NCBI GenBank assembly: GCA_945860285.1
Contig: CAMAQB010000037.1
Coordinates: 1 to 33,405 of the forward strand
Direction of reading: 5' to 3'
DNA: 33,405 nucleotides
From: Akkermansia muciniphila
GTDB lineage: Bacteria > Verrucomicrobiota > Verrucomicrobiia > Verrucomicrobiales > Akkermansiaceae
Shown here: positions 1 through 33,230 of the stretch, piece by piece
How positions within the stretch are numbered: the stretch's first letter is position 1
Layout of the letters: every line of letters begins with the position of its first letter
The notes under the pieces: model-generated
Databases searched by the model: none
What the model saw: the letters and a program-made list of their open reading frames with translations, nothing else
Told to the model about the DNA's origin: nothing
Program-made: the position numbers and the translations under genes

Positions 1-1064
1 AGGGTGATGATCATGCCGCATTTGCCATCGCCGATGCTTTTGCCGTCGAGGGCAAGGCTGCGGGGTAGTAGACCGGAGTTGGCTTGGAGCCATGCGGTGA
101 GGGCTTCGGAGTAGGCTTGGGGATCGATGAGGTTGAGTAGGTCGTTGAGGGCATCGTAGCCGGGCATTTTGAGGCGTCCGCTTGTTTTATGGCGGACTTT
201 TAGGCCTATGGCTTCGCGTTGTTTTTGGTCGAGTTTTGCAACTTTGCGCCAGATGTTGCGCATGTCGCGCCCGCCCATGAGTAGGCCGAGGGCAACGAGG
301 GTGAGCATGGCGGTGAATGGATGGCGGCGGCTTTGCGCTCGACGGGGATCGGGCACTTCTTCGAAGGCGTGGCGTAGGGTTTTGAGTTGGTTGATTTTGA
401 GTGGGCTGCGGACTCCTGCGCCAGCGGTTAGGGCGGCTTCGCAGACGCCGGGTAATTGGGGGGCGCACATGAGCTTATAGGCTTGTGGGTGGAGGGGTTT
501 AAGCCAGAGTTTTTTGGGGCGCTGATTGGGCAGATAGTAGTCGGTGTGGTCTTGGGAAAAGCCTTGGGTGTCGCCGATGTATGTCCAGTTAGTGGCTCGA
601 TAAACTGTGCCAGCGTGTAGTTCTGGATCACTAAAACTTTCGGCTAAAAGTGGGCGATAGCCGTGTTGGGCGTGCCATTGTGCTGGTAGTTCGCGCAGGG
701 CGAGGCCGAGGCATTGTGAGGCGAGATTGGGACGCCGAGATTTTTCTGGCACAAGGAAACGGCGTAACTGGACGACGAGTTTAAGCCGTTGCGAGCGGGT
801 GACGGGATCCCAGCCGATGATTGTATCGCGATCTTTGAGATGCCAAGCGGCAGCGCACCAAATGAGCACGGCGACGACTTGTCCGCCCTCGAGCACGAAC
901 TGGCAGAGTCGATCTCCGGCCTCGCGACCCGCGCCAAGGAAGTGTTCTTCATCGAGCATCTGATGGGCGATTTCCCAATCTGCGGATGTAAGTGCTTGTT
1001 TGATTTCAAGTAATCCGCGGTCCGAGTGGGCCGCGCCTGTTTGGAAGTCGTGCTTGTGGATCAC
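1..1064 (-). CDS. DUF4338 (DruA-like)-ISAs1 transposase fusion, 3' end beyond window
   Basis: Seen: an uninterrupted minus-strand frame of 354 codons from GTG 1064 to the window edge, so the C-terminus is missing. GTG is preceded by AGGA at 1076-1073, eight bases upstream; an in-frame TGA lies at 1070-1068, which fixes the start. Residues about 20-190 match the DUF4338 pattern found in DruA of the Druantia defence system (LCQFVLEGGQVVAVLIWCAA, HLKDRDTIIGWD, NLAS, HGYRPLLAESF, GTVYRATNWTYIGDTQGFS). Residues about 225-354 match the start of ISAs1/H-repeat transposases: EEVPDPRRAQSRRHPF, then ALDGKSIGD, whose Asp340 would be the first DDE residue. Known: DDE transposases cut and join IS ends; the role of DUF4338 is not established. 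Inference: this is an IS transposase with a DruA-like N-terminal module. It is intact as far as visible. Domain assignment is from pattern recognition only. Confidence 0.82.
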   Translation of the reverse strand, partial: MIHKHDFQTGAAHSDRGLLEIKQALTSADWEIAHQMLDEEHFLGAGREAGDRLCQFVLEGGQVVAVLIWCAAAWHLKDRDTIIGWDPVTRSQRLKLVVQLRRFLVPEKSRRPNLASQCLGLALRELPAQWHAQHGYRPLLAESFSDPELHAGTVYRATNWTYIGDTQGFSQDHTDYYLPNQRPKKLWLKPLHPQAYKLMCAPQLPGVCEAALTAGAGVRSPLKINQLKTLRHAFEEVPDPRRAQSRRHPFTAMLTLVALGLLMGGRDMRNIWRKVAKLDQKQREAIGLKVRHKTSGRLKMPGYDALNDLLNLIDPQAYSEALTAWLQANSGLLPRSLALDGKSIGDGKCGMIIT

Positions 1065-1183
1065 AAGTCAAATCCTGCATTTTTGGAGCCTTTTGTCTAG
1101 GATTATTTTAATAGCTTCTGTAAAAAGGCTTTGTGAGGATCAAGCCAATCGCCCTGCCGGATTTGAAGTGAAAGAATTTTTAC

Positions 1184-1231
1184 ACTTCCCATCCGGCTGC
1201 CGATCCGCTAAGTGCCATTCAAGCGATGAAC
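1184..1231 (+). repeat. Copy 1 of a 49-bp intergenic box
   Basis: Contains TTCCATCCGGCTGCCGATCC near its left end. About 42 of 49 positions match 7047-7094. Both copies lie 110-180 bases upstream of a copy of the pyrimidine-rich repeat, so the two may be parts of a longer composite element. Confidence 0.7.
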
Positions 1232-1367
1232 GATAGCATCACATTCAACACCGCTTATCACGTAGAAGCGGCATTGATCACCCGAGCCCCCGGCGGTGGC
1301 GATTCTCTTTTGCGCTCGAAATTGACAGCGGCAAGCCCTCGCCCTAGGGAGCCGCGCCCGGGAAACT

Positions 1368-1447
1368 CATTTCTCCTCTTTTCCCGGCTCTTCAAACCTC
1401 CCGTTTTTTTTCCCAGGCACATCAAACCTAACGAAAAATTCCAGCAA
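1368..1447 (+). repeat. Dispersed pyrimidine-rich repeat, copy R1
   Basis: Pyrimidine-rich ~80-bp block made of two similar halves: TTTTCCCGGCTCTTCAAACC, then about 30 bases later TTTTCCCAGGCACATCAAAC, followed by CTAACGAAAAATTCCAGCAA. The second half and tail recur at 7171, 8538, 10421 and 12448 in the same orientation. This copy ends directly at the ribosome-binding region of the DUF1592 gene. Confidence 0.8.
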
Positions 1448-1464
1448 TGGAAGGAAATTCCGGC

Positions 1465-4400
1465 GTGAACAATATGCTGCGATCCTCGATCTTTCCAGCA
1501 CTCATCTCGATGAGCGCGTCGGCGGTGTTCGCCGATCCGTTTCAGCTGTCCATTCAGCCACTGCTGAAAGAATATTGCGTCACCTGCCACTCCACGGAGA
1601 AGCAGAAGGGCGATCTCGATCTGGAGCGTTTTACCTCGCTCGATCTAGTGAAGCGCGATCCCGGAGTGTGGGAGCATGCGCTGGATCAGATCCGCGACAA
1701 GGAGATGCCGCCAAAGGGCAAGCCCAAGCCTTCGCCCGAGCAAATGAAGCTGATCACGGACTGGATGCAGGGCACGCTAGACGAAGTCGCGCTCGCGAAT
1801 GCGGGCGATCCGGGACCGGTGGTGATCCGGCGCTTGTCGAACATGGAATACACCTACACGCTGCGCGACCTCACGGGCGTGGTGTCGCTCGATCCGGCCA
1901 AGGAATTTCCCGTCGATGGTGCTGCCGGTGAGGGTTTCACGAATGCCGGCGCGGCGCTGGTGATGTCGCCGGCTCTGCTGACCAAGTATCTCGACGCGGC
2001 CAAGGAGATTGCCAGTCACGCGGTGCTTACGCGGGAAGGAATTCATTTTTCGCCGGGCACAACATCGCGTGATTGGACGGATGAAACGCTGGCGAAGATT
2101 CGCAGCTTCTACACGCGCCACACGGTGACGGGAGGTGGATCGCAGGTGACGCAACAGGGCATCAATCCCGATGTCGCGACCAGTGCGGGCCGCCTGCCCG
2201 TCGAAAAGTATCTCGATGCCTTGCAGGGCAGATCCAACGGCGACGGCCTGAATGCCAGATACCTCGACACGCTGCGCAAAGCGTTCGCGGATACGAGGTC
2301 CTCGCTCGTGCTCGACACTCTGCGCGCCAAGTTCCGGGCCGGCACGCTCAGGGTGGAGGACATCGAGACCTGGCAGCAGTCGCTTTGGCGGTTCACAAGC
2401 GTGGGGCACATCGGCAAGAATGGCGGCCCAAAGGCTTGGCAGGAACCGATGGCACCGCTTGCAACGCGGCAGGAAATGCGTGTGAAGCCCGGCACACCCA
2501 CCGATGGCGGCGACGTGACTTTCTATCTCTCCACCACCGACGCGGGCGACGGCACGGAGAACGATCTCGCCGTGTGGGAGAATGCGCGACTGGTGGCTCC
2601 AAGACGTGCGGATTTTCCGTTGAAGGATGTGCGCGCGCACATGCAGCAATTGGCAAAGCGGCGCGAGACCGTGAGCGCGAGCGTGGTGAAATGCCTCGCG
2701 GCAGCAGATGAGGTGGAGCGTTCCATCGAGCGCGCCGACATCGCCAAGCTCGCGCAGAAACATGGCGTGCAGCCGGATTTGCTTGCGGCATGGCTAGATT
2801 ACCTCGGTATGGAATCTTCCGACGAAGTAAAGCTCGGACAACTGCTCACCATAAAGATGGAAAGCACGCCTGAATACAACTTCATCAAAGGCTGGACCGA
2901 AGAAAACGCACTCAGCGTGCTCGCCAATTCATCGGATGCCACGGTGCGTATTCCGGGCGCGATGAAGGGCCATAGCATCGCAACTCATCCGTCGCCAAAG
3001 CTCGCGTCGGTCATCGCGTGGCGGAGTCCGGTGAGCGGGACGCTGCGCATCAGTGGCAGCGTGCAGGATGCACATACCGAGTGCGGCAATGGCGTGACGT
3101 GGTCTGTGGAGTTTCGTCGCGGAAAAACGCGCAACGTTCTCGCCAGCGGAGTAAGCACGGGCACTGCGGTCATCGACATGGGACACCATGAAAACATCCG
3201 CGTGCTGCCCGGCGATGCCATCGCGGTGGTGATCGGTCCGCGCGATGGCGAACACACGTGCGACCTCACAGCGATCGATCTCGTGCTGAACGACGGCACG
3301 ACAGAGTGGAGCCTCGCAAAAGACATTTCGCCCGACATCCTCGCCGGCAATCCTCACGCCGACAGCCACGGAAACAAGGACGTTTGGTACTTTTCCGGAG
3401 AGCCGGCCCAAAACGACATCGCACTGAATATTCCGGCTGGTTCCTTGCTCGATTTATGGCGCAATACGTCGGATGTCGGCGAACGCGAGCGCCTCGCAGC
3501 ACAGATCCAGCAACTCCTCCAGCGCGACCTCGCCACGGTCGCCAAGGACTCACCGGACCACGCCATGCATTCAAAACTGCTCTCATTCAACGGGCCGCTG
3601 CTGGCCGCCTCCCTTCGATCGGTGAAGTTGCAGGACGAAGATGGTTCGCCATCGCCTTATGGCGTGGAGCGCGGCCTGTTCACCGGGGCGGATCTCAACG
3701 TGCAGGCGCCTTCTTTAATCGAAGTGCGACTGCCTGCCTCGCTCGTGGATGGCGCGGAGTTTGTCGTGACCGGCATGCTGCGCTCCGCGGAAGGCAGCGT
3801 GCAGATGCAAGTGCTCACGACCAAGCCGGAGAAACTTTCCGGAATCGTGGCGAGCAGGGCGGAAACGGCGCAGGCCACTGGTCTGTGGTCCGACAACAAC
3901 CTGCGCACGCAATACAGCACGCCGGTGATCGTGAATGACGGCAGCGCGGTGCGTGGTCGTTTTGAAGCGGCTTTCGACGAGTTCCGCGCGCTGTTCCCGG
4001 TCGCGCTGTGTTACACGAAAATCGTGCCCGTGGATGAGGTGGTGACGCTGACCTTGTTCTATCGCGAGGACGAGCACCTGAAGCGCCTGATGCTCGACGA
4101 GGCGCAGAGCGCCGAACTCGACCGTCTGTGGGACGAACTGCGGTTTGTCAGCGAGGCGCCGCTCAAGCAGGTCGATGTATTTGAGCAGCTCTGGCAGTTT
4201 GCCACCCAGGATGCGAAACCTGAGGCCTTCGAACCGATGCGCGAGCCGATCATGCGCGGTGCGGAGGTTTTCAAGAAACAGCAGATCGAGGCCGAGCCGA
4301 AACATGTGCAGGCCGTGCTCGATTTCGCCATGCAGGCCTGGCGGCGGCCGCTGAACGACCCCGAGCAATCCGAGTTGCGCGCCCTTTACCAAAAGCTCCG

Positions 4401-5547
4401 CCAGCAGGATCTCCCTCACGCCTCCGCCGTGCGCATGCTGCTCGCCCGTGTGCTGGTGACACCGGCGTTTCTGTATCGCGGCGAGAAAGCTGCTCCGGGC
4501 CCGAAAGCAGCGCCGGTGAACGATTGGGAACTCGCCACGCGCTTGAGTTATTTCCTGTGGTCTTCCGCTCCCGATGCCGAACTGCGCGATCTCGCGGCCT
4601 CAGGGAAATTGCGCGATCCCGACGTGCTCACCGCACAGGCCCGCCGCATGATGAAGGACGCGCGCATTCGCCGCCTCGCGACCGAATTCGGCTGCCAGTG
4701 GCTGCACGTGCGCGAAGTCGAGACGCTCGATGAAAAGAGCGAGCGGCATTTCCCCACCTTCGTCGGATTGCGCGCCGACATGCAGGAGGAGGCGGTGCGT
4801 TTCTTCATGGATCTGTTCCAGGCCGATCGCTCCGTGCTCTCGCTGCTCGCGGCTGATTACAGCTTCGTCAATGGCCCGCTGGCGAAGCACTATGGATTCG
4901 CATCGAAAGGCGAGGACTGGCAGCGCGTGGATGGCTTGCGGGCGCAGGGCCGCGGCGGCGTGCTCGGTTTCGCGGCCACACTGGCGAAGCAGGCCGGAGC
5001 ATCGCGCACCAGCCCGATCCTGCGCGGGAACTGGCTCAGCGAAGTGGTGCTCGGTGAAAAGCTGCCGCGACCTCCAAAAGGTGTGCCGGTCCTCCCGGAG
5101 GAAGCGCCTGCGGGGCTCACCGAGAGACAGCTGACCGAGCGCCACAGCAGCGATCCCAAGTGCGCCGGATGCCATCAGCGAATCGATCCATTCGGCTTTG
5201 CGCTCGAAGGCTTCGATGCCATCGGCCGCGTCCGCAAACTGGATGCGGCCGGCCTCGTCATCGACACACACACGACGCTCGCCAACGGCACGCCCATCGA
5301 CGGCCTCGATGGCCTGCGCACTTATCTCGTCAGCACCCGGGGCGACGATTTTATCCGCCAGTTCTGCCGCAAACTCCTCGGCTACGCTCTGGGTCGTAGC
5401 GTGCAGCTTTCCGACAAACCGCTGATCGAAACCATGCTCGCCCAGCTCAAGGCCAACGAATATCGCGTCAGCACCGCGATGGAACTGATTGTCAACAGCC
5501 CGCAGTTGCGCGAAGTTCGCGGTCGGGATTTTATCACCAACCACTGA
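1465..5547 (+). CDS. DUF1587/DUF1595/DUF1592/DUF1588/DUF1585 cytochrome-like exported protein
   Basis: Exported PVC-type protein of about 1360 residues; the biochemical role of the family is not established. GTG 1465 is chosen because GGAAGGA (1449-1455) sits nine bases upstream; ATG 1474 is possible and ATG 1447 overlaps that site. A Sec-like leader (LRSSIFPALISMSASAVFA) is followed by heme-binding-type CVTCH (DNA 1576-1590). Then come DUF1587 (about residues 125-190, NMEYTYTLRDLTG), DUF1595 (about 950-1005, AWRRPLNDPEQ), DUF1592 (about 1010-1130, LATRLSYFLWSSAPD), DUF1588 with a second motif CAGCH (DNA 5161-5175) and C-terminal DUF1585. A segment of several hundred residues between DUF1587 and DUF1595, with beta-rich stretches around residues 510-640, makes it longer than the usual 800-1000. 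The stop lies five bases before the DUF1552 gene, so the two form an operon. Family call is firm; substrate unknown. Confidence 0.93.
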   Translation: MNNMLRSSIFPALISMSASAVFADPFQLSIQPLLKEYCVTCHSTEKQKGDLDLERFTSLDLVKRDPGVWEHALDQIRDKEMPPKGKPKPSPEQMKLITDWMQGTLDEVALANAGDPGPVVIRRLSNMEYTYTLRDLTGVVSLDPAKEFPVDGAAGEGFTNAGAALVMSPALLTKYLDAAKEIASHAVLTREGIHFSPGTTSRDWTDETLAKIRSFYTRHTVTGGGSQVTQQGINPDVATSAGRLPVEKYLDALQGRSNGDGLNARYLDTLRKAFADTRSSLVLDTLRAKFRAGTLRVEDIETWQQSLWRFTSVGHIGKNGGPKAWQEPMAPLATRQEMRVKPGTPTDGGDVTFYLSTTDAGDGTENDLAVWENARLVAPRRADFPLKDVRAHMQQLAKRRETVSASVVKCLAAADEVERSIERADIAKLAQKHGVQPDLLAAWLDYLGMESSDEVKLGQLLTIKMESTPEYNFIKGWTEENALSVLANSSDATVRIPGAMKGHSIATHPSPKLASVIAWRSPVSGTLRISGSVQDAHTECGNGVTWSVEFRRGKTRNVLASGVSTGTAVIDMGHHENIRVLPGDAIAVVIGPRDGEHTCDLTAIDLVLNDGTTEWSLAKDISPDILAGNPHADSHGNKDVWYFSGEPAQNDIALNIPAGSLLDLWRNTSDVGERERLAAQIQQLLQRDLATVAKDSPDHAMHSKLLSFNGPLLAASLRSVKLQDEDGSPSPYGVERGLFTGADLNVQAPSLIEVRLPASLVDGAEFVVTGMLRSAEGSVQMQVLTTKPEKLSGIVASRAETAQATGLWSDNNLRTQYSTPVIVNDGSAVRGRFEAAFDEFRALFPVALCYTKIVPVDEVVTLTLFYREDEHLKRLMLDEAQSAELDRLWDELRFVSEAPLKQVDVFEQLWQFATQDAKPEAFEPMREPIMRGAEVFKKQQIEAEPKHVQAVLDFAMQAWRRPLNDPEQSELRALYQKLRQQDLPHASAVRMLLARVLVTPAFLYRGEKAAPGPKAAPVNDWELATRLSYFLWSSAPDAELRDLAASGKLRDPDVLTAQARRMMKDARIRRLATEFGCQWLHVREVETLDEKSERHFPTFVGLRADMQEEAVRFFMDLFQADRSVLSLLAADYSFVNGPLAKHYGFASKGEDWQRVDGLRAQGRGGVLGFAATLAKQAGASRTSPILRGNWLSEVVLGEKLPRPPKGVPVLPEEAPAGLTERQLTERHSSDPKCAGCHQRIDPFGFALEGFDAIGRVRKLDAAGLVIDTHTTLANGTPIDGLDGLRTYLVSTRGDDFIRQFCRKLLGYALGRSVQLSDKPLIETMLAQLKANEYRVSTAMELIVNSPQLREVRGRDFITNH

Positions 5548-5552
5548 ATCCT

Positions 5553-6884
5553 ATGAACAACCACCGTTTCACCCGTCGTGCCTTTCTGCGAGGAGTCGGC
5601 GTAACCATGGCCCTGCCGTGGTTGGAGTCCTTCAATGTGTGGGGCGATGAACCGCTGCGCGACAAACCAGCCAGCGAAGCGCCGGTGCGACTGGCGGTAT
5701 TGTTTTCGGGCAATGGTTTTCATTCCAGGGAATGGTGGGCGAAGGGAGAGGGTCGGACGATGGAGCTGGGCCAGGTGCTCGCACCGCTGCAGGACTTTCG
5801 CGAGAAGATGATCTTCGTGCGCGGACTGTATCACGAGGAGGCGCGGAAAGGGAACATCCACAGCTCGCAAACGGGCAATCTGCTCTCGGGCGCACCGATT
5901 GCGTCGGGCGGCGAGATCCGCTCAGGCACGAGCTTCGATCAGGTGCTGGCGCAGACGTATGGGCGTTCCACGAAAGTGCCGAGCCTCGTGCTCGGCTGCG
6001 AGCGGTCGAATCCCTCGGTGCACAAGAACTACTCAATGCTCTACAGCTCGCACATTTCGTGGAGTTCGCCGACGACCCCGACGCCGCTGGAACTCTACCC
6101 CGCGCTGGCCTTCGACCGGCTCTTCAAGGACGACGCGGCACCCGGCGACAAGAGCGTGCTCGATGCCGTGCTCGCCGATGCGCAGGACCTGCGGCGCGGC
6201 ATCAGCAGCAGCGATCAGCGCAAGCTTGACGAGTATCTCGACAGCGTGCGCGAGGTGGAAAAGCGCATCGAAAACGCGGGCCTGCGCGGAGAATTGCAAG
6301 GTTGGCGGCCCACGCTCGACAAGCCGAACATCCGGCGCCCCGCCGAGGGCATCCCGCAGGACATCGGCGAGCACATGCGGCTGATGTGCGACATCCTCGC
6401 GCTCGGCTTCCAGACCGACACCACGCGCATCACCACGCTGAAGTTGAACAACGATCACAGCGCACTGCGTTTCCCGAATCTCCCGAGCGTGCAGCAGGTC
6501 GGCCACGGCATCGACTACATGATTCACCACCTGCTCAGCCACAGTGACGGAGATGACTGGCTGAAAGTGAATCAGTTTTTCATCGAGCAGCTTGCCTACC
6601 TCGCGCGCAAGCTCGACTCCATCCAGGAAGGCCCGCGCACGCTGCTCGACAACACCATGCTGCTCCATTGCTCGAGCATGATGGCCGGAGCGAAGCACGA
6701 CAACGACCAGCTTCCGGTCCTCGTCCTCGGCGGTGCCGGTGGCCGCCTCAAAAGCGGTCGCGTGATCGACTACAAGGACAAACCCGAGCGCCAGCTCTGC
6801 CGCCTCTTCCTGTCGATGATGGACAAGATGGACGTGCGCCCTAAGACCTTCGGCGACGCGAAACAGATGCTGGAGGAAATCTGA
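5553..6884 (+). CDS. DUF1552 protein with Tat leader
   Basis: 443 residues, the normal size for DUF1552. The N-terminus MNNHRFTRRAFLRGVGVTMA is a twin-arginine-type leader (RR at residues 8-9), so export in a folded state is expected. Family-like segments include LFSGNGFHSREWW, GLYHEEARKGNIHSSQTGNL and the C-terminal LVLGGAGGRLKSGR. DUF1552 genes usually directly follow DUF1592 genes, as here with a five-base gap, which suggests the two products work together in the periplasm. The enzymatic activity is unknown; these proteins are often compared with the DUF1501/sulfatase-like group, but no catalytic residues can be named from the sequence. Confidence 0.93.
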   Translation: MNNHRFTRRAFLRGVGVTMALPWLESFNVWGDEPLRDKPASEAPVRLAVLFSGNGFHSREWWAKGEGRTMELGQVLAPLQDFREKMIFVRGLYHEEARKGNIHSSQTGNLLSGAPIASGGEIRSGTSFDQVLAQTYGRSTKVPSLVLGCERSNPSVHKNYSMLYSSHISWSSPTTPTPLELYPALAFDRLFKDDAAPGDKSVLDAVLADAQDLRRGISSSDQRKLDEYLDSVREVEKRIENAGLRGELQGWRPTLDKPNIRRPAEGIPQDIGEHMRLMCDILALGFQTDTTRITTLKLNNDHSALRFPNLPSVQQVGHGIDYMIHHLLSHSDGDDWLKVNQFFIEQLAYLARKLDSIQEGPRTLLDNTMLLHCSSMMAGAKHDNDQLPVLVLGGAGGRLKSGRVIDYKDKPERQLCRLFLSMMDKMDVRPKTFGDAKQMLEEI

Positions 6885-6914
6885 TCACGGCGCATCCGCC
6901 GTCGGTAGCGCGGC

Positions 6915-7004
6915 TTAGTGGTTGAACACGAACCCTTTGGAGTTCATGAACGACCACAGCACGTCCTCGATCGCGGCACGGCGCGATTCGCCTTCCCTGG
7001 TGAA
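6915..7004 (-). pseudogene. C-terminal remnant of a DUF1549/DUF1553-type gene
   Basis: Minus-strand codons from about 7004 to a TAA at 6917-6915 read ...RRAA followed by AIEDVLWSFMNSKGFVFNH and stop. This is the characteristic tail of PVC DUF1549/DUF1553 proteins (AIEDxLWxxxNSKEFxFNH). Upstream, the similarity stops near 7004 and the frame closes at a TAA about 13 codons further (7041-7043), so only about 29 codons of the old gene survive. The break lies shortly before the 49-bp box at 7047. Recognised from family motif memory, not from a search. Confidence 0.7.
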
Positions 7005-7046
7005 TGGAGTACATGCGACTTCGCATGGAAAAAGAGAGAATTACTC

Positions 7047-7094
7047 ACTTCCCTTCCGGCTGCCGATCCGCTATAGGCCATTCAGGTGATGAGC
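7047..7094 (+). repeat. Copy 2 of the 49-bp intergenic box
   Basis: Matches 1184-1231 at about 42 of 49 positions, including the shared core TCCGGCTGCCGATCCGCTA. As at the first site, a copy of the pyrimidine-rich repeat follows about 80-120 bases downstream. Confidence 0.7.
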
Positions 7095-7170
7095 GTAATC
7101 CACACATTTCCCGTCGCTTTTCACGCAGAACCGGCTTCGGTCGCAAAAGCCCGCGACGTTGCCATTCATC

Positions 7171-7250
7171 ACCACACTTCTCCCCACCTCACGAACCTCT
7201 TATTCTTTCTCCCAAGCACATCACCCCTACAAGTAAATTCCTAACAATCA
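7171..7250 (+). repeat. Dispersed pyrimidine-rich repeat, copy R2
   Basis: Same two-half structure: CTTCTCCCCACCTCACGAAC then TTCTTTCTCCCAAGCACATC with tail CCCCTACAAGTAAATTCCTA. It lies between the converging 3' ends of the DUF1552 gene and hicB, so it cannot be a promoter for either. Confidence 0.75.
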
Positions 7251-7355
7251 CAAGAGGTTAAGTCAAAAAGCTTCGTCGGGGCGCGGGCCGCATATTGGGC
7301 ATCGGGCAAATGTTCTATTTCTATCTCATGCCTCTGGCGCAGCGGTCTTAACCAT

Positions 7356-7745
7356 TCACAACGCCTCGAGAGCGATCCGGGCGATGAAGCCGGAGCGGGA
7401 TTCGCCGTTTTTATCAGCAGCTGCATCGATGCGACGGAGAACGCGCTCGGGGAGGGAGATGTTCAGGCGCTTGGCTTTTCCGGAGAGGGCGGCGAGATCC
7501 ACCGAGGCGATTGCTCAGATCATACCAGCATAATCGGGGTTGGCGGCGTGGATTTCGATACCCTGAGGAGCAGGAATTTTCTCTCCAGCATCCAGCAAGC
7601 CCTCGATGTGAAAAGCCACTGCTTCTGAGGCATTGGCTATGGCCTCATCCAAGGTGTCTCCCGCGCTGAAGCATCCGGGAAGGTCGGTAATTTGAACACC
7701 ATAGGCTTTGCCGCGTTCGTGTTCGATGGCGATGGGATAGTTCAT
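7356..7745 (-). pseudogene. hicB: HicB-like antitoxin gene broken by an in-frame TGA
   Basis: The frame from ATG 7745 encodes a HicB-type partial RNase H fold (ITDLPGCFSAGDTLDEAIAN, then EAVAFHIEGLLDAGE, IPAPQ). At 7517-7515 a TGA stops it after 76 residues (...PDYAGMI). Without any frame change the same frame continues with AIASVDLAALSGKAKRLNIS and LPERVLRRIDAAADKNGESR to a TGA at 7358-7356: the ribbon-helix-helix DNA-binding tail of HicB. Read through, the product would have about 129 residues, normal for HicB. The stop sits where HicB proteins commonly have Trp (MIWAI), so a TGG-to-TGA change is the simplest explanation. HicB normally neutralises HicA and represses the operon; the truncated form lacks the DNA-binding part. 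The start overlaps the hicA stop as ATGA. Confidence 0.8.
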
Positions 7746-7930
7746 GGTTTATTGATTCCTGCCGATTTGAGGATGGCCCATGCGATCCCGATCGGCAGGT
7801 CTTTTTACGGGTGCGGAACAGTGACGACACCGGATTTAAGTGGGTGCTTGAATTGGTGATGGCTTCCCTTGGTTCGGGTCTCATGCCATCCATCCTTTTT
7901 CAAGAGCCTAATGATTTCTCGGCTTCTCAT
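7742..7930 (-). pseudogene. hicA: HicA-like mRNA interferase gene broken by an in-frame TAA
   Basis: From ATG 7930 the frame reads MRSREIIRLLKKDGWHETRT then KGSHHQFKHP and VVTVPHP, the HicA dsRBD-like fold with its catalytic-histidine motif GSHHQF. Codon 42 (7807-7805) is TAA, after which the same frame continues KDLPIGIAWAILKSAGINKP to a TGA at 7744-7742. Family members read PHPKKDLPIG here, so AAA-to-TAA is the simplest change. The full frame is 62 residues, the usual HicA length. HicA cleaves mRNA when not bound by HicB; this copy would yield only 41 residues and is probably inactive. No Shine-Dalgarno sequence precedes ATG, and the candidate -10 box is so close that the transcript could be nearly leaderless. 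Confidence 0.8.
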
Positions 7931-7950
7931 CGTGTGTAATTATACACACG
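7931..7950 (-). promoter_or_regulatory. hicAB operator palindrome overlapping the -10 box
   Basis: Perfect inverted repeat with arms CGTGTGTA and TACACACG and a 4-bp spacer ATTA. Read on the minus strand its centre contains TATAAT (7944-7939), a consensus -10 box; TTGCTA at 7965-7960 is a weak -35 candidate with a short 15-bp spacer. The palindrome abuts the hicA start. Autorepression by the HicB ribbon-helix-helix domain at such a site is typical for hicAB; binding here is inferred. Confidence 0.6.
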
Positions 7951-8305
7951 CACAGGCTTTAGCAAGCTTAGAATTAAGATATTTTGGGATACGTCTTTGG
8001 TCATGTTTTTGTAGATGTTTACACACAAAGGACGACAGTTTAGATCACTCATCAACTCGAGCGCCAAAATGACCATCTAAAAGGGGGCTCGCAGGTGTCG
8101 GAAAAACGTAGAACAAAATACTACAAAAGGTGGTCGAAACGTTTAAGCCGCCCGCGCATTTAGCTATGAAATCCAAGCCAACTTCTGATCGACACCAGCC
8201 CTTTCTCATCAAAGCTTATCCAGTCGGAAAGTGTCCTGACGAACAGTGGATTTTTCCGATGTCAAACTGCCGCCGCTTCCCATTCCGCTGCTTGCGGTAG
8301 TAGCG

Positions 8306-8385
8306 CATTCCCCCCTCTTTTCCCGCCTCCGGTCCGACCACCAGCCCTTTCAGTGTCCTACACCCCAAAAGCAAATTGCTTGCAG
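8306..8385 (+). repeat. Diverged copy of the dispersed repeat
   Basis: CATTCCCCCCTCTTTTCCCG followed about 35 bases later by TACACCCCAAAAGCAAATTG and CTTGCAG. This parallels the first half and tail of R4 (CATTTCCCTTTTTTCCCGCT ... CAACCCCAAAAGAAATTTTC). The middle is poorly conserved, so this is a weaker call than R1-R5. Confidence 0.5.
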
Positions 8386-8537
8386 TCCGCATCCAAGTTA
8401 AAATCTTGACCAAGTGTTCAAGAGAGCTATCCTCGCAGTGTTGGAATTGAGCCATTTAAACCAGTAATAGCATCCGCCGCACGGCTGTTTCGTCGCGTTT
8501 TTCAACCCTGCTCAGTAGTCACTCGACGCTTTTCACT

Positions 8538-8620
8538 TCTTTGGAACCCCTTTTCCCCGCTCTTCGAATCCTCAGTTCCTTTCCCACGCACGTCAACCCT
8601 AACGAAAATTTATACCAGTC
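8538..8620 (+). repeat. Dispersed pyrimidine-rich repeat, copy R3
   Basis: First half CTTTTCCCCGCTCTTCGAAT, second half CCTTTCCCACGCACGTCAAC with tail CCTAACGAAAATTTATACCA. Lies immediately upstream of the GH101-like gene start (8625). Closest to R1 in the tail CCTAACGAAAA. Confidence 0.8.
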
Positions 8621-8624
8621 CGAC

Positions 8625-10382
8625 ATGAAGATATCAGCAAGTTCAAGAGTGGTTGGTTTGATTGCAGGAATCGTCTTTTCTGGCGCGCTTGAAGCACCGG
8701 GCGAAACCGTCACTGATGACCGGTTGATCGATCAAATTGCCTTGCATGTTGAGCCGAAAATTCTCAACCCCGTGCGCGATAAGACAGCCACGGGGAAGAT
8801 ATCGCTGATCGCATTTCACGCGGATGGCTCACAGCGCGTTCTGCGGAACGCTGATGCGGTGATCAACGCGAGAACAAAAGTTGCCAGCGGGAATGTCGAA
8901 GTGGCGACGGTTGATGGCGACAAGGTTGTGCCCAAAGAGGGCGGCATCGCCATCATTGAGGCAGAAGTCGTTGAGAACGGCAAGTCATTCAAGGCCAGCA
9001 CGGATGTTGTCGTTACGCCGTATTACCGGGACTATCATCAGGCACTGGTTATGAAATTATTCCTCGGGATGGAAGGTGATCCGGTGGAGCGCCTTGCCAA
9101 CGATCCCACCTTCCGTCAAGGACACGAAGTGATGTGCACATTCGAGGAGACCCTGGAACTTATCCGCAGGACCGACAACCTGACGCGCGGAATACCGAAG
9201 ATCATCTATCTGGTCGGCTGGCAGAAAGGAGGCCACGACCACGGGTATCCCGACTGGAGTGAGGTGAACCCCAGGATGAAACGGGCGCAGGATGCCACCG
9301 GGCTCGAAAGCCTGCGCTGGCTAATCCGCGAGGGCAGGAAGTTCAACACGACGGTCAGCCTGCACCTCAACATGGTTGATGCCTACAAACACAGCCCGCT
9401 GTGGGATGAATACGTTGCGAAGGACTGTTTCGCCAAGGATGAGAGCGGGCAATTGCTTGTCGGCGGAATCCAGGTGAAAGGAGATGACATGTACAACGTG
9501 GTCTATCCCAAAGAATGGGAAGCCGGGTTGGCGCAGAGACGCATTGACGGTTTGATCAAACTGATTCCCGAACTGAAAGAGGGGCATACCATCCATGTCG
9601 ATGTGTTCATTGCCAACCGCGATGGCGGCAGGCCGATCAGCCCCTGGCATGCGAAACCAGAGCATGGCGGATTGACGCCGGACAAGTATGTCGGAACCCA
9701 GCGCAAGATTTTCCACTACTGGCGCGACCGGGGTTTTGATGTGACAGGGGAAGGAACCGGCTGGGCCCATCCGCCGGGTGAACATTTCATCGGCCTGCAG
9801 GCGATGTCGTGGTGGTATTCCTGGAACCCGATGGAGATCCCGGAGTGCCTGGGTGCGCGAGGCCGCACCGATCGAGGCGGCGACGGCGACTTCCGCTTCG
9901 GCGCAAGCATGCACGGCGAGGAAATCTGGAAGAACGACAAGACGAACATGCCCGGTTTTCTCGGCATGTTCTGCCGCACGACCCTTCCGTGGTACTACCT
10001 CAGCCGGTTGGATCGGCAGAAGTTTGAGAACGAGGTATTGTATTACAGCGAGGGGGTTGTGGCCGGACACGAAAAGGGAAAACGCATCATTCGCAAAGGC
10101 GAGTTCGTCCTGCGTGAGAATGATGATCTTTTTGTTCCCGCCCTGTGGAGAACGAAGAAAGAGATCATTGCCTACAGCAAAGAAGGCTATGAACTCAAAG
10201 AGTGGCTTTTGCCTGACGACTGGAAAAATGTAAAAAGTGTCGATCTTTACAGGATTACTCTGGAGGGTTGTATACCTCTGAAGAAGGATGTTCCGGCAAG
10301 CGGCGGCAAACTGAGTTTGTCGATGGAAAAAGACCAGGCGGTTTCCGTAATGCCAGCAGGGCAAATGATTTCAGGAGATTGA
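8625..10382 (+). CDS. Secreted GH101-like endo-alpha-N-acetylgalactosaminidase family protein
   Basis: 585 residues from ATG 8625, chosen because a Sec-like leader follows directly (MKISASSRVVGLIAGIVFSG); the in-frame ATG at 8541 lies within the repeat. Residues about 25-125 resemble a bacterial Ig-like domain. The catalytic region resembles GH101 proteins, which release core-1 O-glycans from mucin-type glycoproteins: IYLVGWQKGGHDHGYPDW, then LRWLIREGRKFNTTVSLHLN and HVDVF. Asp326 in HVDVF is a candidate nucleophile and Glu376 in DVTGEGTGW a candidate acid/base; both are inferred from position only. The protein is shorter than multidomain GH101 enzymes from gut bacteria. It stands alone, preceded by R3 and followed by R4. 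Alternative: another clan-GH-A/TIM-barrel glycosidase. Confidence 0.65.
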   Translation: MKISASSRVVGLIAGIVFSGALEAPGETVTDDRLIDQIALHVEPKILNPVRDKTATGKISLIAFHADGSQRVLRNADAVINARTKVASGNVEVATVDGDKVVPKEGGIAIIEAEVVENGKSFKASTDVVVTPYYRDYHQALVMKLFLGMEGDPVERLANDPTFRQGHEVMCTFEETLELIRRTDNLTRGIPKIIYLVGWQKGGHDHGYPDWSEVNPRMKRAQDATGLESLRWLIREGRKFNTTVSLHLNMVDAYKHSPLWDEYVAKDCFAKDESGQLLVGGIQVKGDDMYNVVYPKEWEAGLAQRRIDGLIKLIPELKEGHTIHVDVFIANRDGGRPISPWHAKPEHGGLTPDKYVGTQRKIFHYWRDRGFDVTGEGTGWAHPPGEHFIGLQAMSWWYSWNPMEIPECLGARGRTDRGGDGDFRFGASMHGEEIWKNDKTNMPGFLGMFCRTTLPWYYLSRLDRQKFENEVLYYSEGVVAGHEKGKRIIRKGEFVLRENDDLFVPALWRTKKEIIAYSKEGYELKEWLLPDDWKNVKSVDLYRITLEGCIPLKKDVPASGGKLSLSMEKDQAVSVMPAGQMISGD

Positions 10383-10420
10383 ATGCATGTATGATATCGT
10401 CAAGAGATTCCCCGTCGCAT

Positions 10421-10502
10421 CATTTCCCTTTTTTCCCGCTGCTATAACTTCTCATTATCTTTCCCGGCCACATCAACCCCAAAAGAAATTTTCTAGCAAT
10501 CA
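10421..10502 (+). repeat. Dispersed pyrimidine-rich repeat, copy R4
   Basis: CATTTCCCTTTTTTCCCGCT, then TCTTTCCCGGCCACATCAAC with tail CCCAAAAGAAATTTTCTAGC. It starts 38 bases after the GH101-like stop codon. Confidence 0.8.
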
Positions 10503-10608
10503 ATAATCTTGGCAAAGCCGGTCTGTGAACCTACGTTAGCGACAAATGAAATGAACCGTCAAATACAGCAACGGCCATCGCAACACTGCTGCGTCGCGTT
10601 CTGGCCTT

Positions 10609-10649
10609 CCCAATCCAAAATCCAAAATCAACAATCATCAATCGGCCAC
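10609..10649 (+). repeat. Direct repeat upstream of the ORF6N gene
   Basis: CCAATCCAAAATCCAAAATC continuing AACAATCATCAATCGG. Matches 11426-11465 after allowing for an internal 7-bp duplication (CCAAAAT) in this copy. The two copies flank the ORF6N gene about 820 bases apart. Confidence 0.65.
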
Positions 10650-10721
10650 CTCTTCCCATTCCGCTTTTTTCCTTCACCCAGCTACCACTTCAGTTAGCAT
10701 TTCGGCAATCACTATCCATCC

Positions 10722-11357
10722 ATGACCGCCAAGCGAAAACCCGGCCCGGACCCAGCACCTGCTTCCCTGCTCGTGCCGGATAAGCTCGCCACGCTCGTGC
10801 ACTACCTGCGCCGTGAGAAAGTCATTCTCGATTCCGATCTGGCGGAGCTTTACGGAGTTCCAACCGGACGCCTCAATGAAGCCGTTCAGCGTAACCTCGA
10901 ACGATTCTCCGCCGACTTCATGTTCCAACTCACTGAAAATGAATTGGAATCTTTGGTATCGCAAATTGCGATAGCAAAGAATGCGGAGTCGTCTTTAAGG
11001 TCGCAATCTGTGACCTTAAAGCGTGGCGGACGCCGCAGCCTCCCCTACGCCTTCACCGAACAGGGTGTCGCCATGCTTTCCAGCGTGCTGCGGTCGGAAC
11101 GTGCCGTGGAGGTGAACATCGCCATCATGCGGACCTTCGTGCAACTCCGGCGACTGATGGATTCCAACGCCCTCTTGGCCGAGAAAATCGAAGCCCTCGA
11201 GGAAAAATACGCCGATCACGACCAGCAATTCCAGATCGTCTTCGAAGCCATCAAACAACTCATCGCCGCTCCTGCTCCTCCATCCAAAGAACTTGGCTTT
11301 CACACCATCCCGTCCGCTGCTACCGCGAAAAAGCAACCCCGCCGTCCCAAAACCTGA
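10722..11357 (+). CDS. ORF6N domain protein
   Basis: 211 residues. Residues about 15-105 fit the ORF6N domain, a putative DNA-binding module first known from phage proteins: KVILDSDLAELYGVPTGRLN, QRNLERFSADFMFQLTENEL and the later YAFTEQGVAMLSSVL, RSERAVEVNIAIMRTFVQLR. Residues about 150-180 look like a short coiled coil (LLAEKIEALEEKYADHDQQF), and the tail is Pro/Ala/Lys-rich. ORF6N genes are scattered accessory genes in many bacteria; a regulatory or mobile-element-linked role is often assumed but not proven. Its flanking direct repeats (10609-10649 and 11426-11465) suggest movement as a cassette. No ribosome-binding site is obvious before ATG 10722. Confidence 0.88.
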   Translation: MTAKRKPGPDPAPASLLVPDKLATLVHYLRREKVILDSDLAELYGVPTGRLNEAVQRNLERFSADFMFQLTENELESLVSQIAIAKNAESSLRSQSVTLKRGGRRSLPYAFTEQGVAMLSSVLRSERAVEVNIAIMRTFVQLRRLMDSNALLAEKIEALEEKYADHDQQFQIVFEAIKQLIAAPAPPSKELGFHTIPSAATAKKQPRRPKT

Positions 11358-11425
11358 TCGCTCCTTGGATTGATGATTGATGAACTCCAATTTTTTTGAT
11401 CTGAAAGAAAGACGGCTATTGGTTT

Positions 11426-11465
11426 CCAATCCAAAATCAGCAATCGTCATACGGCAATCTCTCCC
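11426..11465 (+). repeat. Direct repeat downstream of the ORF6N gene
   Basis: CCAATCCAAAATCAGCAATC followed by GTCATACGGCAATCTC; pairs with 10609-10649. A degenerate first half of the dispersed pyrimidine-rich repeat follows (CTTTTCTCAGCATCTCCAAT, about 11466-11486). Confidence 0.65.
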
Positions 11466-11572
11466 CACTTTTCTCAGCATCTCCAATCTAATAACCCCAA
11501 TCTCATCATAAGCGCAGCCATCGAAACCACCGCATTGACCTGCTTTGAAGAACTGAACGCGGCAGCAACCCC

Positions 11573-12397
11573 ATGACTTGGAAACGAAAACTTCTTGGTA
11601 GATGGTCGTGGAAACGGCCTTTTATTTCTCTTGCCTGGATTTATTTTTTACTTTCAATAGTCGCGTATTTTTTCGGATCAAAACTTTTGTTTCGCCCTCC
11701 TCATAGTGGCTATGCGGCTGATGGACTGCGCTACAAAACCATAGAAAATGGAGTAACACCAAAGATTGGTTACACGTGGTTATCACCACGCGACGACAAA
11801 TCGCCAGTGCTGTTTTTTTCTCATGGCAATGCCGAAGATATCGCAGACTACGAATGGTTGTTCGATGAATGGCATCGAGCTGGTTGTGGCGTTTTTTCCT
11901 ACGATTATCCCGGTTATGGCATATCGGCAGGATCACCTACCGAGGCATCTGTGAATGCCGCGGCTTCCGCATCCTGGCATTATTTACGCGAGTCTCTCGG
12001 CATACCTGCGGAGCGCGTGATCATCATCGGACGCTCGGTAGGCTGTGGTCCAGCTCTGGCACTTGCGGTAAAAAATGATCATGCAGGAATCATTTTACTC
12101 TCCCCATTTATGTCAGCATTCAAGACTGTTACCCGCGTGCCGATTTTCTTGGGCGACATGTTTCCTAACGATCAAGTGATCCTCTCACTTCATACGCCCT
12201 TACTCATCATTCATGGCGAAGATGATCGCGTGGTTCCTTGCTCGCAAGGTCACTCTTTGTTTGAAAGCAGTCCTAGTCGCAATAAAACATGGCTTGCGTT
12301 GCCACACTGCGGGCACAATGATCTGTTCGACGAAAATGAAGCTTTATTGTTAGAAAAAATCGTCGGTTTCGCTATCGAAAATGGCACTCAAAAATGA
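11573..12397 (+). CDS. Membrane-anchored alpha/beta hydrolase
   Basis: 274 residues with one N-terminal membrane segment (about 18-36, ISLAWIYFLLSIVAYFFGS), so the hydrolase domain probably faces the periplasm. The alpha/beta-hydrolase pattern is complete: oxyanion region HGNAED (84-89), nucleophile elbow GRSVG with Ser155, an Asp in HGEDDRVVP (about 218) and His248 in CGHND. This is the ABHD17/BEM46-like type, whose bacterial substrates are mostly unknown; an esterase, lipase or thioesterase activity is expected. The gene is clearly richer in A and T, with more TTT/ATT/AAA codons, than the cytochrome-like genes on either side, which suggests different ancestry. It is followed by repeat R5 and converges with the DUF1501 gene. 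Confidence 0.85.
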   Translation: MTWKRKLLGRWSWKRPFISLAWIYFLLSIVAYFFGSKLLFRPPHSGYAADGLRYKTIENGVTPKIGYTWLSPRDDKSPVLFFSHGNAEDIADYEWLFDEWHRAGCGVFSYDYPGYGISAGSPTEASVNAAASASWHYLRESLGIPAERVIIIGRSVGCGPALALAVKNDHAGIILLSPFMSAFKTVTRVPIFLGDMFPNDQVILSLHTPLLIIHGEDDRVVPCSQGHSLFESSPSRNKTWLALPHCGHNDLFDENEALLLEKIVGFAIENGTQK

Positions 12398-12447
12398 AGC
12401 ATAGGCAACTCCAGCGCGATGAAACATCACTTCTAATCTTGCATCAC

Positions 12448-12531
12448 GCTCCTACTTTCCCCCATTCTTCCAACCTCTCACCTTCTTTCCCGTTCACATC
12501 AAGCCTGAAAGCAATTTTTTAGCAGCCAGCA
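12448..12531 (+). repeat. Dispersed pyrimidine-rich repeat, copy R5
   Basis: TACTTTCCCCCATTCTTCCA then CTTCTTTCCCGTTCACATCA with tail AGCCTGAAAGCAATTTTTTA. Lies between the converging 3' ends of the hydrolase and DUF1501 genes, so it is not a promoter. No copy was found to the right of this one. Confidence 0.8.
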
Positions 12532-12538
12532 TTTTTTC

Positions 12539-13939
12539 CTAAGCCAGGATCGGGGTGATGACCTTGCCCTTGATGTCGGTCAGGCGGTAGTCGCGACCTT
12601 GAAAACGATAGGTGAGCCGCGTGTGCTCGATGCCCATCAGATGCTGCATGGTGGCGTGGAGATCGTGAACATCCACCCGGTCCTGAACCGCGTGATAACC
12701 GAGTTCGTCGGTCGCGCCATAGCTGATTCCCGGTTTAATCCCGGCGCCGGCCATCCAGATGCTGAAGCCCTTGTTGTGGTGGTCGCGGCCGTTGCCCTGC
12801 GACATCGGCGTGCGCCCGAACTCACCGCCCCAGATCACCAGTGTGTCATCCAACAACCCGCGTTGTTTCAAGTCGCTGAGCAGGGCCATGCAGGCGCGGT
12901 CGATTTCCTCGGCTTTGAAAACGATGCCCTGTTTGATGTCGCCGTGATGGTCCCAGTCCTTGTGATAAAGCTGGATGAAACGCACGCCGCGCTCGGCCAA
13001 GCGGCGCGCAAGCAGGCAGTTGTAGGCAAAACTGCCATCGCCCGGTTTGCAGCCGTAGAGTTCCAGCACCGAAGCGGGTTCCTTCGACAGGTCCATCAGC
13101 TCCGGCACGCTAGATTGCATTTTGAACGCCATTTCGTACTGGGCGATGCGGGTCGCGATTTCCGGGTCGTGCACCACGGCATCGTGAACGCCGTTGAGCT
13201 GGTTGATCGCCTTGACCGCATCGAGTTGACGGCTGACATTGATCCCCGGCGGCGCGTTGAGATACATCACCGGATCGCCCTTGCCGCGCAGATGCACGCC
13301 TTGGTTGCGACTGGGGAGAAATCCGCTCGACCACTGGCGCGCGGCGATCGGCTGGTTTTGTCCACCGCGACCGAGCGACGTCAGCACCACGAAACCCGGC
13401 AGGTTCTGCGCTTCGCTGCCGAGGCCATAGGTTGCCCATGCTCCCATGCTCGGACGCCCGGCGATTTGCGAACCGGTGTTCATGAACATGTGTGCCGGAT
13501 CGTGATTGATCGCCTCGCTGTAGACCGAGCGAATGATGCACATGTCGTCGGCCATTTTCCCCAACTGCGGCAGCAGAGAGCTGAACTCCTGACCTGACTT
13601 GCCGTATTTTTGAAACGGGTGCTGCGGGGCGAAACATTTCAACGCCTGGCCTTGGAGCTGGGCGATCTGCTGGCCTTTGGTCATGCTTTCCGGCATCGTT
13701 TTGCCATCCATTTGCCCCAGCACCGGTTTGTAATCGAACGTCTCCAGATGCGACGGGCCGCCAGCCATGCTCAGGAAAATCACCCGCTTTGCCTTGGGGG
13801 CGAACAATGGCGAGCCGAGAACGCCGGGCACCGAAGCCGCGGCATCATTGCCTAACAAATGCGCCAACGCGGCGGCACCGAAGCCGTAGGATGCCTGATT
13901 GAGAAACGCGCGGCGATGAAGTGTGGAGAATGGTTGCAT
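12539..13939 (-). CDS. DUF1501 protein with Tat-type leader (copy 1)
   Basis: 466 residues, the usual length. Twin-arginine-type N-terminus (LHRRAFLNQASYGFGAAALA). Family motifs: KRVIFLSMAGGPSHLETFDY, HMFMNTGSQIAGRPSMGAWA, GLLDDTLVIWGGEFGRTP and RDHHNKGFSIWMAGAGIKPG. DUF1501 proteins belong to the alkaline-phosphatase/sulfatase-like fold; no substrate is known. Genes of this family almost always follow a DUF1549/DUF1553 gene, and here ATG 13939 lies three bases after that gene's stop, indicating translational coupling. It is the last gene of the minus-strand group starting at 17969. Confidence 0.95.
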   Translation of the reverse strand: MQPFSTLHRRAFLNQASYGFGAAALAHLLGNDAAASVPGVLGSPLFAPKAKRVIFLSMAGGPSHLETFDYKPVLGQMDGKTMPESMTKGQQIAQLQGQALKCFAPQHPFQKYGKSGQEFSSLLPQLGKMADDMCIIRSVYSEAINHDPAHMFMNTGSQIAGRPSMGAWATYGLGSEAQNLPGFVVLTSLGRGGQNQPIAARQWSSGFLPSRNQGVHLRGKGDPVMYLNAPPGINVSRQLDAVKAINQLNGVHDAVVHDPEIATRIAQYEMAFKMQSSVPELMDLSKEPASVLELYGCKPGDGSFAYNCLLARRLAERGVRFIQLYHKDWDHHGDIKQGIVFKAEEIDRACMALLSDLKQRGLLDDTLVIWGGEFGRTPMSQGNGRDHHNKGFSIWMAGAGIKPGISYGATDELGYHAVQDRVDVHDLHATMQHLMGIEHTRLTYRFQGRDYRLTDIKGKVITPILA

Positions 13940-13942
13940 GGT

Positions 13943-16423: not shown

Positions 16424-16459
16424 TCGCGGAACCTATACGTTTTCCGACCCGGAAACATT

Positions 16460-32950: not shown

Positions 32951-33230
32951 GGGAAGACAGGCGTCCCCGCCTGCCTGTCCCGCCAAGCGGTGGTCTCGGC
33001 AAACAGGCTTCCAGCCTGTTTCTTCACCTGCTACCTTGGGAAGACAGGCGTCCCCGCCTGTCTCGGCAAACAGGCTTCCAGCCTGTTTCTTCGCCTGCTA
33101 CCTTGGGAAGACAGGCGTCCCCGCCTGTCTCGGCAAACAGGCTTCCAGCCTGTTTCTTCGCCTGCTACCTTGGGAAGACAGGCGTCCTCGCCTGTCTCGG
33201 CAAACAGGCTTCCAGCCTGTTTCTTATCTG
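32951..33230 (+). repeat. Four tandem 67-bp units with two hairpins each
   Basis: Units begin at 32951, 33038, 33105 and 33172 (period 67; the first carries a 20-bp insertion). Each unit holds GACAGGCG-TCCC-CGCCTGTC (perfect inverted repeat) and AAACAGGCT-TCC-AGCCTGTTT (9-bp perfect stem), followed by TTCGCCTGCTACCTT. Units are nearly identical, with single substitutions (TCCTCG in the last; TTCACC in the first). Such paired palindromes are REP-like. It is not a CRISPR: there are no unique spacers. Confidence 0.9.

Follow-up and report, generated by a model that had tools for sequence, protein, structure and literature searches.

We analyzed a 33,405-nucleotide stretch of Akkermansia muciniphila DNA (the window), which is the entire contig C37 of a 3.7-Mb genome in 162 contigs (G000), for a dispersed repeat that a first-pass annotation had noticed there. 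Five copies had been named, at about 1368, 7171, 8538, 10421, and 12448, all in one orientation and only in the first 12.5 kb. We find that these repeats are very probably the right (ori) ends of a Verrucomicrobiota rolling-circle transposon of the insertion sequence (IS) family IS91, mostly nonautonomous copies of about 76 to 80 bp, with some longer left-truncated fragments. The copies most likely spread and accumulated between genes of Verrucomicrobiota genomes, mostly in one orientation, so that they mark old insertion points, a possibility raised by the annotation, and are neither promoters nor integron cassettes. Its further suggestion of an undescribed kind of element is not supported, because the repeat forms the right end of a transposon in the IS91 family.

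Some copies are the terminal part of elements of up to about 1.9 kb. Among the longer copies, homology extends to the left for up to about 1.9 kb; on the other side it halts no more than 16 nt from the right end in nearly all of the pairs listed, and two alignments end within the copy. The encoded protein has the domains Y2_Tnp (PF04986; 1.3e-24) and Zn_Tnp_IS91 (PF14319; 4.3e-19) and scores 183.8 bits with the NCBIfam IS91 transposase model, whose cutoff is 125. An HPHLH motif and an invariant tyrosine (EYLLR) are present in all six aligned members; transposases of the Y2 type have a second catalytic tyrosine. Transposase matches were found in genomes G003 (with one stop), G005, G016, G017, and G036.

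The fetched DNA holds 25 distinct transposase-like sites, and the linkage between transposase and repeat was assessed at every one, accepting a 3' end with up to four substitutions within 1,500 nt. The 3' end lies downstream on the same strand at 17 of the 25 sites, at none on the opposite strand, and at one in the upstream control. It is carried by each of the 15 sites whose match spans at least 60 amino acids with over 60% identity and reaches the query end, 713 to 957 nt further on. At the 14 sites found by transposase alone, the 3' end is present in 7, including all 6 long matches, and the other 7 comprise fragments, one site where downstream space is lacking, and relatives of 24 to 28% identity. 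In G183, an 11-kb stretch holds an uninterrupted IS91 (502 codons) and seven more copies, all on one strand. Compared with the last 75 nt of this IS, four of the seven are identical (75/75) and three match at 70 to 71 positions. A variant IS91 end was seen in G036 (locus L342, contig C24), 776 to 863 nt beyond the aligned part of the transposase. This variant ends in AAAAGCGATTTCCTAGCA and has a partial tandem copy; inspection by eye also suggested an inverted repeat, AACCCCCTCC/GGAGGGGTT.

The main class of the element is noncoding and about 76 to 80 bp long, with the left end YAACCCCCTTT, the right end AAAAGCAAATTCCTAGCA, and a middle that is specific to each subtype. Both ends were present in 44 of 71 copies picked without a search pattern, while the left end was missing in 24 and the right end in 3. 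Among 165 copies with AACCCCC and the 3' end, IS sequence lies on the left in 24 and does not in 141; the base before AACCCCC in these 141 is C in 118 and T in 20, i.e., the tetranucleotide is CAAC or TAAC in 138 of 141. The right-hand tetranucleotide is CA followed by two variable bases, and the last tetranucleotide is repeated in 19 of 132 full copies. Additional 3' pieces within 60 nt are found on the right side of 11 of these 132 copies and on the left side of 2; at locus L247, two full copies are followed by a run of truncated copies with similar ends. Neighboring copies 100 to 20,000 nt apart are on the same strand in 113 of 122 nonredundant pairs and on opposite strands in 9. GC skew is negative in 123 cases and positive in 49, a count confounded by gene orientation and by the C-rich element itself.

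In the window, a model of subtype T1 trained on 19 copies from elsewhere (10 from G000 and 9 from two genus relatives) matched all five named copies on the plus strand, with E values of 1e-12 to 1e-8 and 30.5 to 43.3 bits. The top score in 100 dinucleotide shuffles of the window was 10.3 bits, so the similarity goes well beyond shuffled sequence, and no further strong match was found across the remainder of the 33.4-kb contig; the named set and its confinement to the first 12.5 kb stand as first described. Copy ends were refined with a further model, R2 (Table 1). A second model was built from 103 cores from genome-contig loci, none of them typed from G000 and with other subtypes dominating. 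It gives the 8306 copy 26.2 bits (shuffles, at most 10.2) and the named copies at most 7.5 bits, a level that shuffles also reach; the subtypes differ strongly in the middle of the element. The named copies are therefore assigned to the family through the T1 model and through the G003 IS end, itself of subtype T1. Of three weaker copies proposed at the outset, the one at 8306 is a member of subtype T8, whereas those at about 10649 and 11466 were matched by neither model at an E value of up to 10. A 40-bp repeat (83%), rich in AATCCAAAATC, lies near the latter two, at 10619-10658 and 11428-11467. The proposal that each copy consists of two halves of about 30 bp on one plan fell to chance level, as 82 of 500 shuffles reach the score of the half-against-half comparison. 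An Rfam scan of the window gave no match. A coding reading, in which some T1 copies translate to MHINPKSKFLAV-like starts, was dropped because the subtypes appear to vary in length and not every one seems to stay in frame.

A profile of the IS 3' region, built from 11 loci, carries copy 8538 leftward to 8384, directly behind the 8306 copy. Other IS91 remnants in G000 reach 467 bp (contig C22). As the named copies are worn, matching the subtype consensus at 61 to 65 of 80 positions, and G000 has no matching transposase (E value of up to 1e-8), the window copies are probably old relics.

A profile scan of the genome and its relatives had been proposed with the repeat, and it places the element well outside this contig. 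In G000, at least 21 places match R2 at an E value of up to 0.002, 15 of them training copies; this is a minimum, with 150 of 890 candidates scored. At an E value of up to 0.001, R2 matched 6 of 38 genomes, that of the window included (G000, G003, G006, G007, G016, and G031), and T8-like stretches also occur in G006, G004, and G002. A pattern scan of a genome-contig collection returned at least 111 stretches; among 80 listed matches, nearly all are Verrucomicrobiota by name, with single records labeled Halioglobus, Myxococcota, and "uncultured bacterium." The fetched loci hold about 230 nonredundant copies. Within one Verrucomicrobiota order, a broader model of 37 copies found matches in 49 of the 239 genomes and 24 of the 48 genera sampled, with 20 candidates scored per genome, rough E values, and per-genome counts that are minima. 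In 22 of the 49 genomes there is only a single match, and such single matches may include chance ones. The present identification gives this dispersed repeat a name.

Previous work offers a mechanism. IS91 transposition is described there as starting at the right end and stopping at the left end or at similar sequences, and right-end fragments of IS801 of 229, 360, and 679 nt, which begin at a tetranucleotide, are ascribed to one-ended transposition, with upstream DNA sometimes carried along (PMC3189936). Deletions from one-ended transposition were reported to be bordered by GAAC or CAAG (PMC6354349). In Verrucomicrobiota, an HUH transposase acting in trans would initiate at the right end and copy leftward. 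Copying would often halt short of the true left end, either at a YAAC tetranucleotide some 76 nt into the element or elsewhere. New copies would join at or near existing right ends, which would produce head-to-tail arrays on one strand and reiterated 3' ends. Judged by their ends and arrangement, the copies fit this one-ended scheme, in which YAAC, some 76 nt inward of the right end, would be a frequent stop.

The closest known counterparts are the IS801 fragments of Pseudomonas syringae, also of the IS91 family. These are reported to be continuous fragments with an intact right end and a left end at a tetranucleotide, features shared by the elements here, and sometimes to carry left-hand DNA (PMC3189936). 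Unlike these, the main class here is only about 76 to 80 bp, has many copies in a genome, forms same-strand arrays in which 3' ends are reiterated, and uses other tetranucleotides. The IS91-like ISCR elements share a related transposase, a right-end oriIS, and a link to mobilized neighboring genes (PMC6218425), but the transposase here scores 97 bits against an ISCR clade Ia cutoff of 925. Bacterial miniature inverted-repeat transposable elements (MITEs) are short noncoding repeats with terminal inverted repeats. The present elements are likewise short, noncoding, repeated, and presumably dependent on a transposase in trans; unlike MITEs, they showed no terminal pairing in fold tests, 37 folded copies included, and their parent is an IS91-type rolling-circle element. 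Nonautonomous Helitrons of eukaryotes are also short derivatives of a rolling-circle HUH parent, but the elements here are shorter and have no conserved 3' hairpin in the 37 folded copies. Full-text searches of open PMC papers, with subscription journals and ISfinder outside the scope, brought up no title or abstract opening on such miniature IS91 ends in Verrucomicrobiota. The copies offer a natural record of IS91-type one-ended transposition, in which many copies begin at the same tetranucleotide, some 76 nt before the right end, and such short elements could serve to test how IS91 chooses its stop and how frequently neighboring genes are carried. Where they go unrecognized, they resemble promoters, sites of cassettes, or small repeats that border genes.

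Several observations weigh against our interpretation. Eight of the 25 transposase-like sites have no 3' end (fragments, one site lacking downstream space, or 24 to 26% relatives), and most transposase loci had been fetched for carrying the element, which leaves only the 14 protein-found sites free of that choice. The lack of an IS91-type transposase in copy-bearing G000 counts here too, as it does in G006 and G007, and G031, with 12 copies, has only a 28% relative. The tetranucleotides here (YAAC at the left end, CA with two variable bases at the right) differ from the GAAC, GGAC, CAAG, and CGAC reported for IS801. The right end is the best conserved part, which may bias local profile matches and inflate left truncation. 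No clean empty site was found among the compared loci. Loci L224 and L262 match to the left as well as to the right of a copy, and one of the G000 copies, on contig C9, has an orthologue in G003; copies therefore also descend in place. A comparison for empty sites gave 44 redundant rows, most of them IS remnants and 5 classed as "simple"; these category counts carry no weight in our argument. Of the "simple" candidates, L369/L377 is a tandem duplication on one contig, L030/L129 an orthologous copy below the cutoff, L030/L113 the same G003 site, and L044/L027 and L044/L080 duplicated genes on one contig; another empty-site comparison yielded array artifacts.

The annotation had proposed that copies mark the borders of gene modules. 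This proved true at the sole border in the window that could be tested; at the others, the PSD/DUF1552, GH101, and ORF6N modules gave no substantial DNA match among the matches listed for 10 genus genomes. At the testable border, window positions 12538-16424 (DUF1501-PSD1) align with G003 contigs C271 and C152. On C271, this block is followed by an unrelated gene with no detected element, and the window breaks from it at copy 12450-12525. Elsewhere, L242 and L379 keep the right flank up to the copy and not the left, L379 having a copy of its own about 80 nt to the left, and L217 and L225 have in common, at 97%, a 1.5-kb unit between two copies, with different outer flanks. These patterns fit carriage of left-hand DNA, but deletion or recombination as well. 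Together with the same-strand arrays, they are also consistent with a recombinase-free cassette system, in which IS91 transposase in trans would move a 76-bp ori end, with the gene on its left, to a place beside another copy. Arrays of "gene plus ori end" units on one strand would grow in this way, and modules would be shuffled. Such a system would be like integrons in shuffling gene modules, with rolling-circle transposition in place of a recombinase; we regard it as possible but rather unlikely.

That the copies are relics of old IS fragments spread mainly by homologous recombination or segmental duplication is improbable. In P. syringae genomes, most IS801 fragments were ascribed to reorganizations (PMC3189936), and both the missing transposase of G000 and the descent of some copies in place agree with such a history. 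Transposition better accounts for identical copies with unrelated flanks and for the same two ends beside an uninterrupted IS, and the 141 of 165 double-ended copies outside an IS context also speak against recombination.

A role as a conserved promoter or leader for downstream genes, as reported for the oriIS of ISCR1, is a still less attractive explanation. Copies 1373-1447 and 8546-8619 do sit where the PSD and GH101 frames begin, and outward promoters are reported in the ISCR1 oriIS (PMC6218425). However, with a simple open reading frame caller, gene orientation around 104 copies is alike on the two sides (right neighbor, 65 plus and 39 minus; left neighbor, 64 plus and 40 minus). Sigma-70-like sites in positions 1100-12600 number 5 against 4.4 expected, which is no excess, and copy 12450-12525 is between converging genes. 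The annotation had judged that the copies are not simply promoters, and this agrees; they may still affect expression as a side effect.

The likeness to cassette arrays that the annotation saw would imply integron-like recombination sites (attC analogues) used by an IntI-type tyrosine recombinase. Arrays on one strand do occur, their units measuring 0.1 to a few kilobases, IntI exceeds the cutoff in 7 of 12 related genomes, and G000 has a C-terminal IntI fragment near a contig end (C118:9503-9661). However, single-strand folding of the copies gave structures less stable than shuffles on both strands (z = 0.8 and 1.3) and no consensus pair over 37 copies, the genes beside copies point in both directions, and no copy was found in 12 stretches around intI genes of related genomes, several of which are under 4 kb and end at contig ends. 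The unit is moreover an IS91 element's end, a linkage that refutes integron sites as the main explanation, and we give them hardly any credence. Equally remote is a short interspersed nuclear element (SINE)-like retroelement spread by target-primed reverse transcription: a 3' end that stays constant while the left side is truncated, 3' pieces reiterated on the right, tails of tetranucleotides, and RVT_1 matches in G006, G007, and G031 are reminiscent of one, but the heavy carriers G000, G003, and G016 have no RVT_1 match at an E value of up to 1e-5 and the longer elements encode an HUH transposase.

Table 1. IS91-type right-end copies and fragments in the window
Feature	Positions	Strand	Support
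Miniature IS91-type right-end element, subtype T1 (copy 1368)	1373..1447	+	43.3 bits, 19-copy model
Miniature element, subtype T1 (copy 7171)	7172..7248	+	30.5 bits
Miniature element, subtype T8 (copy 8306)	8310..8383	+	26.2 bits; 8314-8383, E 1.5e-6
Left-truncated IS91 3' fragment, ~236 bp, abuts copy 8306	8384..8619	+	IS 3'-end profile 8384-8558, E 7e-11
Copy 8538, subtype T1, last part of fragment 8384-8619	8546..8619	+	35.6 bits
Miniature element, subtype T1 (copy 10421)	10425..10500	+	41.5 bits
Probable IS91 3' fragment, right side also cut; begins one base past copy 10421	10501..10607	+	IS 3'-end profile positions 274-374, E 8e-4, 14.3 bits
Miniature element, subtype T1 (copy 12448), at synteny break vs G003	12450..12525	+	37.1 bits

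Other repeats and genes were noted nearby. Another dispersed repeat, about 116 bp long, lies to the left of two copies (1183-1298 and 7046-7161, 74% alike) and has matches on contigs C93, C24, and C61; the IS 3' profile has no match at this repeat. At locus L044 (G000, contig C27), two tandem genes (7315-8031 and 8219-8932) encode secreted-looking proteins with what we take, by eye, to be ubiquitin-like sequence (MQIFVKTLTGKTITLDV...), and an IS91-end copy lies before each gene. Window positions 3-1157 hold a gene with DruA and DDE_Tnp_1-associated domains; its stretch 1100-1157 is found again on several further contigs, for the most part close to a contig end, so it looks like a multicopy mobile element. 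At the other end of the window, 32951-33225 is a tandem array with a 67-bp period and CAGGC...GCCTG motifs.

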